64,000 bases of DNA from the NCBI RefSeq assembly GCF_026004075.1, contig NZ_BPIK01000001.1:1032041-1096040 (forward strand). The letters are read 5' to 3'. A program made the translations under genes and the position numbers. This DNA comes from Meiothermus sp. (GTDB lineage Bacteria; Deinococcota; Deinococci; Deinococcales; Thermaceae). Under the pieces are notes generated by a model, which saw nothing but the letters and a program-made list of their open reading frames with translations, was not told where the DNA came from and did no database searches. Numbering within the stretch: the stretch's first letter is position 1; the number at the start of each line of letters is the position of its first letter. Shown in pieces: positions 42,896 to 47,052 of this stretch.

Positions 42896-43522
42896 ATGTT
42901 TTTCTTTGAGCTTCTCGGCAGAGATCCATTGGCCTACCTGGTTGCGTTTGCTGCAGCCGCTTTTGGCCTGGTTGTTCATAACCTCTTTCAGGCCTATCTG
43001 GCCGATCGCTACAAGGATACTGACCCCAGACGCTACGGCTTCCTTACAGTGGAGCCGAGGGTGCATCTAGATGGACTGGGTCTGATTTTTCTAGCACTCA
43101 TTGGTTTTGGCTTTCCTCGCCTGGTACCCTGGCGACTCTTTGGGACAAAAGCTGCTCAGACTGCATTGATGGGGCCGTTGGGTTTTTTCGCGGCTGCTTT
43201 TTTCTACCTGCTGCTGGCAAGGCTTTTAGAGAATCTGGGCCCGGCTACCACGAGCATTGCATTAGGCATGCAGGTAGCGGGCTCCTTGATGATCAGCCAC
43301 GCCGCAGTGTATTTGTTTCCCGTACCCCCCCTGGATGGGGCCAGGGTAGTGTACGCCATTGGTAGCGCAGAGGCGCGCCGTTTTATGGATCAGCTCCAAA
43401 GCTATGGCTTCCTGGGATTTTTCCTCATTTTCCTGGTTTTGAACCTAAGCGGGATTTTACCGGCCATCCGGGCGGGCCTAAGCGGTTTGCTCAACAGCCT
43501 CTTTGCCGCAATTGGTTTATAG
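42896..43522 (+). CDS. inactive M50 site-2-protease homologue
   Basis: 208 residues with about six membrane helices. It shares the plan of the next protein: both begin with a short leader ending in D-P-L-A at residues 10-13, carry the zinc-motif position at 28-32, and have a late P-P-L-D-G loop. Here positions 28-32 read H-N-L-F-Q instead of H-E-x-x-H, so the catalytic Glu and the second zinc His are lost. The third-ligand loop FPVPPLDGARVVYA is kept. It cannot be a protease of the usual mechanism, and is most likely a partner subunit or regulator of its neighbour. Its stop is directly followed by the next ATG. Confidence 0.85.
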   Translation: MFFFELLGRDPLAYLVAFAAAAFGLVVHNLFQAYLADRYKDTDPRRYGFLTVEPRVHLDGLGLIFLALIGFGFPRLVPWRLFGTKAAQTALMGPLGFFAAAFFYLLLARLLENLGPATTSIALGMQVAGSLMISHAAVYLFPVPPLDGARVVYAIGSAEARRFMDQLQSYGFLGFFLIFLVLNLSGILPAIRAGLSGLLNSLFAAIGL

Positions 43523-44176
43523 ATGGGACTGTTGCCACTGTTGCAATCAGATCCCCTGGCCTTTGGCCTGGTGGTGTTGGTGCTGCTGGTCTCGTTGGCC
43601 TTGCATGAATGGGGCCATGCTGTTACGGCGCTTTGGATGGGAGACCCAACAGCCAGAGATCAGGGGCGGGTTACACTCAACCCATTCAAACATCTTGATC
43701 TCATCGGCTCTATAATGATTCTGCTGGTGGGCTTTGGCTGGGCCCGGCCTGTGCCTATTTATCCACCCAACTTTCGGCAATACAGGCTGGGTCTTTTTGT
43801 GGTTTCGATTGCGGGAATCTTCATTAACCTTCTCATTGCTACCGCGCTCGCGCTGGTGCTTCGTGGAATTCTGGCAACCGGCCTCTTGGATAACCCCAGC
43901 GGCTTTGTGCTGGTGATAGCCCAGGCCATGGCTGTAGCAGCCAGCATCAATCTAACCCTAGCCGTTTTTAACTTGCTACCTATTCCGCCTCTGGACGGCT
44001 CCAAGATTCTGCAAAGCGTCCTACCGCTGCGCTGGCATTCTTACATTTGGCGTTTGGAATCAAACCCCGCCTACGCAATTGTGGCTATGCTGCTCTTGCT
44101 TACCGTGCTTCGCCAGCCCTTGAGTAGCTTCCTTGGCCTTGTGCGGGCACGCTTTTTTGAGTCTTTTGGCTTGTAA
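43523..44176 (+). CDS. M50 family site-2 protease (rhomboid-like intramembrane metalloprotease)
   Basis: 217 residues, about six membrane helices. H28-E29-W-G-H32 in LALHEWGHAVTALWMGDPTARDQGRVTLNP is the HExxH zinc motif in the first helix; NLLPIPPLDGSKIL in the last third supplies the third zinc ligand Asp. The GRVTLNPFKHLDLIGSIM segment is typical of the small bacterial group without PDZ domain. Members cut membrane-bound anti-sigma factors or signal-peptide remnants; the substrate is not known here. The ATG touches the stop of the preceding pseudo-enzyme, so the two should be translated together. Confidence 0.92.
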   Translation: MGLLPLLQSDPLAFGLVVLVLLVSLALHEWGHAVTALWMGDPTARDQGRVTLNPFKHLDLIGSIMILLVGFGWARPVPIYPPNFRQYRLGLFVVSIAGIFINLLIATALALVLRGILATGLLDNPSGFVLVIAQAMAVAASINLTLAVFNLLPIPPLDGSKILQSVLPLRWHSYIWRLESNPAYAIVAMLLLLTVLRQPLSSFLGLVRARFFESFGL

Positions 44177-45669: not shown

Positions 45670-46062
45670 CTAATGTCTGGCGCTCAGGCACTGGGTACAC
45701 TGACCGTACAGCACAATTTCGTGGCGTTCGGTTCTGAAGCCCTGGGGCACCATAGAGGAGAAATCGCCCGGACAGCCCTCGAGCTCGAATACCTTGCCAC
45801 AGCAGGTGCAGTGAAAGTGGTGGTGGTGCTTTTTGCCTGATAACTCGTAGCGAGGGGCCTCACCTGGAAGTTCAACCGGGATCGCGCTGCCCTCCTCGAC
45901 CAGACCCTTCAGGGTGCGATAGACGGTCGCGATGCCCAGGCCGGGTACTTTGAGCCGGGCCGCCTCGAGCACCTCGGAGGGGGAGAGCGGTCGGTTAAGC
46001 TCTTGCATCACCTGACGGATGGCCTGCCGCTGGCGTGTGGAGCGCTCCATGTTCTTCAGCAT
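45670..46062 (-). CDS. zur: Fur-family zinc uptake regulator (Zur)
   Basis: 130 residues. Winged helix: TRQRQAIRQVMQELNRPLSPSEVLEAARLKVPGLGIATVYRTLKGLVEEG with the recognition helix T-V-Y-R-T-L. Metal-binding part: KKHHHHFHCTCCGKVFELEGCPGDF, and the structural zinc Cys pair CTQC near the C-terminus together with CTCC. It is divergent from znuA, and the intergenic region holds a 7-7 dyad typical of Zur boxes, so Zur rather than Fur or PerR. It may start at ATG 46062 or the ATG four codons later. A zinc-loaded dimer should repress znuA and possibly itself. Confidence 0.9.
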   Translation of the reverse strand: MLKNMERSTRQRQAIRQVMQELNRPLSPSEVLEAARLKVPGLGIATVYRTLKGLVEEGSAIPVELPGEAPRYELSGKKHHHHFHCTCCGKVFELEGCPGDFSSMVPQGFRTERHEIVLYGQCTQCLSARH

Positions 46063-46076
46063 AGCAGATGGGCCGG

Positions 46077-46105
46077 TTGACAGAATGATATTGAGTTATC
46101 ATTAT
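46077..46105 (+). promoter_or_regulatory. znuA promoter overlapped by a Zur box
   Basis: AATGATA (46084-46090), six bases, TATCATT (46097-46103): perfect 7-base arms in the manner of Fur/Zur boxes. It sits between a consensus -35 TTGACA (46077-46082) and -10 CATTAT (46100-46105, 17-base spacing), so bound Zur would block RNA polymerase. Zur's own start is 22 bases away on the other side. Confidence 0.72.
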
Positions 46106-46155
46106 GAATACGGTACTTTTGCCTGGAAAGGGTATAAGGTGCGAGGAGGTTGTTC

Positions 46156-47052
46156 ATGCGAAGTATCCTTCGGACGGGATTGGTGCTGGTCTTGGGCCTT
46201 GGTATAGCCCAGGCCAGTACCCTTTCAGTCTCGGCGACCACCGGTTTTCTGGCCGACATGGTGCGGAATGTGGGGGGTAGCCGGGTCTCGGTTGTGCAGG
46301 TGGTGCCCGATGGCAGCGATCCTCATAGCTTTGAGCCCCGTCCCTCGGTGGTGCGGGCCATTGCTGGTTCTAGGGTTTTGTTTGCCAACGGCCTTTCCCT
46401 CGAGCCGTTTTTGGAGAAGCTCGAGGCCCAGCTTCCAGCCGGCGCCCGCGTGGTTAAGCTGGCCGAAGGGATGCCCAACCTGATCGAGGTGGCCGAAAAC
46501 GAGCCCCACCAGGAAGCCGAGCATGCTCATGAGCACGGTACTTACGACCCCCACCTCTGGCTCGACCCCACCTATGGGGTAAGGTACGTGGAAAAGATAC
46601 GTGATGCCCTGATAGCCCTGGATCCCGCCGGGCGGGCCATCTATACCCAGAACACGGCCCGGTATATTCAGCGGATTCGCCAGGCTGACGCCGAGGTACA
46701 GCGCTGCCTGGCGGCCATTCCCCAGGCCCGGCGCAAGCTGGTTTCCCAGCACGAATCGCTCGGCTACTTTAACCGTTACTACCGCCTCAAAAGCCTGGGC
46801 AGCCTCGCCGACTTTGTCGGCCAGGAACGGGGCCCGGCCAGCCTGGCCCGGCTGGCCCAGGTAATGAAAAAAGAAGGTGTGCGGGTGATATTTGTCGAGC
46901 CTCAGTTTTCGCAGAGCCAGGCCCGCGCCCTGGCCGAGGCTACCGGGGCCCGCATCGTCCGCATCTATTCCGACGCCTTCGATAATACAGTCAACTCCTA
47001 TCTCAAGCTGATACAGGCCAACGGTCAGGCCATTTGCACGGCCTTCAAGTAA
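46156..47052 (+). CDS. znuA: zinc ABC transporter substrate-binding protein ZnuA
   Basis: 298 residues from ATG 46156, spaced seven bases from AGGAGG. Signal peptide SILRTGLVLVLGLGIAQA. The cluster-9 binding-protein plan is clear: LSVSATTGFLADMVRNVGGSRVSVVQVVPDGSDPHSFEPRPSVVRAI (first zinc His), the His-rich loop HQEAEHAHEHG, YDPHLWLDPTYGVRYVEKI (second His), LVSQHESLGYFNRYY (third His) and IFVEPQFSQSQARALAEATGARIVRIYSDAF. It captures Zn2+ outside the membrane. No znuB or znuC gene follows, so the permease and ATPase must be encoded elsewhere. Confidence 0.93.
   Translation: MRSILRTGLVLVLGLGIAQASTLSVSATTGFLADMVRNVGGSRVSVVQVVPDGSDPHSFEPRPSVVRAIAGSRVLFANGLSLEPFLEKLEAQLPAGARVVKLAEGMPNLIEVAENEPHQEAEHAHEHGTYDPHLWLDPTYGVRYVEKIRDALIALDPAGRAIYTQNTARYIQRIRQADAEVQRCLAAIPQARRKLVSQHESLGYFNRYYRLKSLGSLADFVGQERGPASLARLAQVMKKEGVRVIFVEPQFSQSQARALAEATGARIVRIYSDAFDNTVNSYLKLIQANGQAICTAFK

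Follow-up and report, generated by a model that had tools for sequence, protein, structure and literature searches.

Two adjacent genes at positions 42896 to 44176 of the window, a stretch of 64,000 nucleotides from Meiothermus sp., encode related proteins of the site-2 protease (S2P, M50) type, and only the second carries the zinc motif HExxH. The question raised by this locus is what the first protein does with an altered active site, and whether it does so for its neighbor or on its own account. Gene A (42896..43522, plus strand, 208 aa) starts with ATG and ends with TAG, and gene B (43523..44176, plus strand, 217 aa) begins with an ATG that follows directly, in the same frame and with no spare base, so that stop and start are in direct contact at 43520..43525. 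The range and both open reading frames had been correctly placed in the preliminary description, which also attributed one S2P plan to the two proteins. Both comparisons bear this out over the full length: A and B share 30% identity over 211 columns (blastp, E 4e-17), and the two families align with a probability of 99.95% over 204 columns with their motifs in register (hhalign, E 8.5e-38). As had been noticed, the zinc motif lies at residues 28-32 in both proteins, as H28-N29-L-F-Q32 in A (42977..42991) and as H28-E-W-G-H32 in the sequence of B (43604..43618), and the PPLDG loop, with the Asp of the third zinc ligand position, is kept in both (D147 in A, within the loop region at 43325..43342; D158 in B).

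Judged by its sequence, B is an ordinary member of the M50/site-2 protease family, with HExxH, LDG and a Pfam M50 match above the cut-off (E 1.4e-12). In A, HExxH is missing and the third-ligand Asp of LDG is present; the window copy scores 16.7 bits against PF02163, below the curated cut-off of 27.2 bits, and 16 of 39 members of the A family match this profile at E 0.01 or better, a few distant ones lying near or over the cut-off. Besides B, the window genome encodes two further M50 proteins, one of them RseP-like and the second located on another contig.

The S2P membrane fold is predicted for A with high confidence. The AlphaFold2 model of the A family reaches a pLDDT of 96.5 and a pTM of 0.91, and its best matches among solved structures are MjS2P (3b4r; Z 9.8, rmsd 4.4, 152 residues) and Escherichia coli RseP (7w6x; Z 9.8), followed by SpoIVFB (8vjm; Z 7.5), with unrelated helical proteins at about 5. 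Foldseek alone also ranked MjS2P first, yet with an E of only 0.02. In RseP and SpoIVFB, the substrate strand is held by a membrane-reentrant loop (PMC4597795, PMC11486902). The segment G70-F-G-F-P-R-x-V-P78 of A (43103..43129, plus strand) matches the region of this loop, and its GFG/P residues probably form the counterpart of the substrate-holding loop, a position assigned by homology only. Conservation among A copies is high here: 100% for G70, 97% for F71 and 94% each for G72, P74 and P78. The closest known relatives are the minimal M50/S2P proteins, such as MjS2P and the 'site-2 protease family protein' encoded beside scpA/scpB in Clostridia, which A resembles in fold, order of elements, reentrant-loop region and PPLDG. 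It differs from them by HNxxQ, having neither the catalytic Glu nor one of the zinc His residues nor the Asn conserved in the core helix that follows, a position that is aromatic in most A copies, and the window copy falls under the Pfam M50 cut-off. More generally, core Asn residues of S2Ps that are invariant in B are lost in A: N102 is replaced by an aromatic residue in most copies, and N143 and N150 are variable.

The altered motif itself does not vary. Each of the 79 full-length A copies aligned across the phylum has H28, N29 and Q32, just as each of the 54 B copies has H28, E29 and H32. The A alignment contains only 10 invariant columns of 208, the three positions are all among them, and the chance of this is about 8e-5 (720/(208x207x206)). 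An intact HExxH in the first gene of a relative, which had been named in advance as an observation that would refute the proposed reading, was found in 0 of 79 A copies, with no intermediate and no revertant; HNxxQ was in all 79. The codons at these positions vary, with AAC and AAT in 72 and 6 copies at N29 and CAG and CAA in 53 and 25 copies at Q32; this synonymous variation indicates that the residues are held by selection at the protein level. D147 is kept in 78 of 79 copies. The one exception, in locus L041 (genome G048), reads LSG where all other A copies have LDG: Ser takes the position of the third ligand, and HNxxQ is retained. Since the catalytic Glu has become Asn and a zinc His has become Gln, hydrolysis of peptides by A through the M50 mechanism is very unlikely, and the loss of Glu29 and His32 leads us to infer that proteolytic activity is absent.

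Could A then be a decaying pseudogene, or an artefact of assembly? The active-site motif is lost, and in one Thermus-like genome (L046, G064:C1:908486-909662) A is split into two frames by a real frameshift or a sequencing error. However, an A orthologue occurs in 85 of 86 genomes of the phylum (each at least 90% complete) and in 29 of 30 genera, and the loci studied covered all five families of the order; together with the invariant residues, the confident fold and the low dN/dS, this conservation rules out decay and leaves an artefact next to no probability. The one complete genome without A is G086. Pairwise dN/dS has a median of 0.045 for A vs 0.093 for B in the window genus, where a high dS makes the absolute values rough, and of 0.156 vs 0.217 in a second genus. 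Similarly, identity inside the window genus is about 0.84-0.93 for A and 0.73-0.87 for B. The dead protein A is more constrained than the live B. It combines homology to S2Ps, loss of the catalytic residues and conservation across species, the three features by which an S2P pseudoprotease is recognized.

The preliminary description proposed that the two proteins are made together and form a heterodimer, in which the dead subunit either holds the substrate or controls entry to the active one. Joint production agrees well with the wider comparison. Where B adjoins A it lies directly downstream, and in the several dozen genomes in which the two genes were inspected together, stop and start are mostly coupled or overlapping: an ATGA overlap in a Thermus-like genus, TAATG, TAGTG or TGATG overlaps in others and exact abutment in the window genus, with short gaps in a few genomes. 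In its strict form, the proposal makes A and B an obligate heterodimer in which A does not catalyze and has no role where B is missing. The paralogy of A and B and their adjacency are in keeping with this, as are the S2P oligomers seen in detergent (PMC11486902), although the authors of the SpoIVFB study deem these oligomers a likely detergent artefact (PMC11486902). When the two genes were modeled as one read-through chain, with the TAG read as Gln, both halves were S2P-folded at a pTM of 0.66 (0.91 for A alone); the mutual placement of the halves was not confident.

However, A is not always accompanied by B. A genome-wide PF02163 search found no B in about 24 genomes that carry A, a count that is approximate because some of these assemblies are fragmented; 23 of them belong to one family, probably the Deinococcaceae, and one to another, in which one further genome has B located away from A (L215). 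The A motif is intact in the B-less genomes, and their M50 matches are RseP-like, mostly with a CBS-type protein in addition. Since A is kept without B, it must be more than a subunit that works only with B, and we regard the obligate heterodimer as unlikely. What stands of the proposal is that A is an S2P homologue without catalytic residues that is made together with B; what does not is that it exists for the heterodimer. The heterodimer reading is in this way partly supported, and the observation on the pair itself is confirmed in a stronger form than was first noted. Because HNxxQ is identical in every relative examined, even where B has been lost, A very probably serves a function of its own.

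A also has a usual neighbor upstream. A gene for a DHH-CBS-PolyA_pol protein, an architecture that we take to be that of A-adding tRNA nucleotidyltransferases, lies near A in 49 of 67 loci (L083, L069, L062 and 46 others), usually directly upstream, and its end overlaps the start of A in some genera. In the window genome, A is preceded by a LysM-M23 gene; no full DHH-CBS-PolyA_pol protein was found in this genome, and a match confined to the PolyA_pol part lies elsewhere. A function of A through the upstream gene was set aside, given that A is kept where the full protein is absent. Since this genome keeps A without a full DHH-CBS-PolyA_pol gene and others keep it without B, A is tied to neither of its usual neighbors.

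With regard to origin, an IQ-TREE analysis of 108 proteins places all A copies in one clade (support 100/100) on a long stem of 2.26 changes per column, and all B copies in another (100/98) inside the wider S2P family. A tree that joins the two in a single clade is not rejected (p-AU 0.39), which allows A to have arisen by tandem duplication of a B-type S2P in the ancestor of the phylum. Outside the phylum, no A-type protein was found among 84 relatives (the best 80 from a genome scan and four loci from a plasmid collection): all carry HExxH, and none of their loci holds a second match to the family. Similarly, a profile search of 535 genomes from five other phyla (61+119+119+119+117), Chloroflexota and Cyanobacteriota not among them, returned no A-type protein at a threshold of E 1e-37, which is sound, since none of the true A copies checked scores below 252 bits; its single match (L218, 131 bits) has the motif HEVAH. 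Within the range of these searches, A is specific to the phylum.

What might the function of A be? The reading that we favor, tentatively and with somewhat less than an even chance of its being right, is that A is an S2P pseudoprotease still able to bind transmembrane segments, which it presents to membrane proteases or gates for them; among these proteases, B would be an optional partner. Fixed as a pseudoprotease in the phylum ancestor, A would have kept the S2P fold and the membrane-reentrant loop that live S2Ps use for the substrate strand, and both argue for retained binding of transmembrane segments. Its clients would most likely be membrane proteins, whose transmembrane segments would lie in the old groove, with His28, Asn29, Gln32 and Asp147 as part of the putative binding site, and A may present them to membrane proteases or withhold them. 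The presumed partner would be B where B is present and co-translated, and another protease, of the RseP or FtsH type, where B is absent.

The adaptor role is drawn by analogy, from another superfamily, the rhomboids, and from one plant protein. The Bacillus subtilis rhomboid YqgP acts as an adaptor for FtsH independently of its own proteolysis (PMC7231995): as proposed for A, an intramembrane protease fold serves there as substrate adaptor, but unlike A, YqgP has a rhomboid serine fold and is a live protease with a second role. EGY3 of Arabidopsis chloroplasts is closer in kind, being, like A, an S2P homologue without HExxH beside live paralogues, and a non-proteolytic role in stabilizing chloroplast proteins has been reported for it (PMC10978774). 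However, EGY3 is eukaryotic and organellar, whereas A is a minimal protein of bacteria that occurs throughout a phylum, and its translation is often coupled to that of a live S2P. Both cases may serve as precedents for the mode of action, not for the A family.

That the new polar residues never vary speaks for a remodeled site that is itself at work in A, by binding or perhaps by other chemistry. Why a passive adaptor groove should require Asn and Gln without exception where the catalytic residues once stood is not obvious, and a site altered to take a metal or ligand would account for them no less well. A could accordingly still be an enzyme or a metal or ligand sensor: a different metal, or a small ligand, would be bound by His28, Gln32 and Asp147, aided by the polar side chain of Asn29, for non-proteolytic chemistry or membrane sensing. 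Two of the three zinc ligand positions are kept, and the old active-site positions became invariant after their replacement while their codons vary synonymously, which means that selection acts on the replacements. Against this, neither Asn nor Gln is a good ligand for metals, and the Ser at position 147 of L041 may be difficult to reconcile with metal binding. On balance this is an account to which we give a low probability, and we give the same to its broadest form, in which A would be a phylum-wide bacterial family with the S2P zinc site rebuilt to H-N-x-x-Q...D, serving a new chemistry other than proteolysis or the sensing of ligands in the membrane, with no need for a live S2P partner.

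The client-binding pseudoprotease that we prefer has a further rival, in which A inhibits or regulates another S2P, of the RseP or CBS-domain type, as a decoy for clients or partner contacts and not as a presenter. Candidate targets exist in the B-less genomes, with their RseP-like and mostly also CBS-type M50 genes, and there is a precedent for live S2Ps being kept inactive by partners in the membrane: in Bacillus sporulation, the activity of SpoIVFB is controlled by BofA and SpoIVFA (PMC11486902). This likeness has its limit in that A is itself S2P-folded. In the neighborhoods studied, A shows no genetic linkage to RseP-type or CBS-type genes, and a decoy seems to us distinctly improbable.

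Pseudoproteases have been well studied among the rhomboids. For S2Ps, a search of the open-access literature found no bacterial pseudoprotease, and plant EGY3 was the only example met. A adds a minimal bacterial form of about 210 residues that occurs phylum-wide, has an invariant altered site and is under tighter selection than its live twin. It opens a direct test of a non-proteolytic role for an intramembrane protease fold in genetically tractable relatives, for which species with A and B and species with A alone provide a natural comparison.

Some further observations were made around these genes. Just downstream of the pair, the window holds at 45670-47052 a minus-strand open reading frame that looks Fur/Zur-like when read by eye and a zinc-uptake gene of the ZnuA family (Pfam ZnuA, E 1.1e-69), the two facing away from each other. 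In genome G000, the matches at G000:C1:2471953-2472810 and G000:C2:18005-18862 are identical and present the same 417-aa frame with one internal TAG, a stretch duplicated on both contigs. Finally, a second and different degenerate S2P homologue occurs at L094:4421-5026 (G050) and at L219:4882-5496 (G086), in which HExxH is replaced by HGxxL or CHGFVLV, and LDG by LTGG; the copy in L219 adjoins a large protein whose N-terminus, read by eye, resembles BatA/von Willebrand-type membrane proteins.
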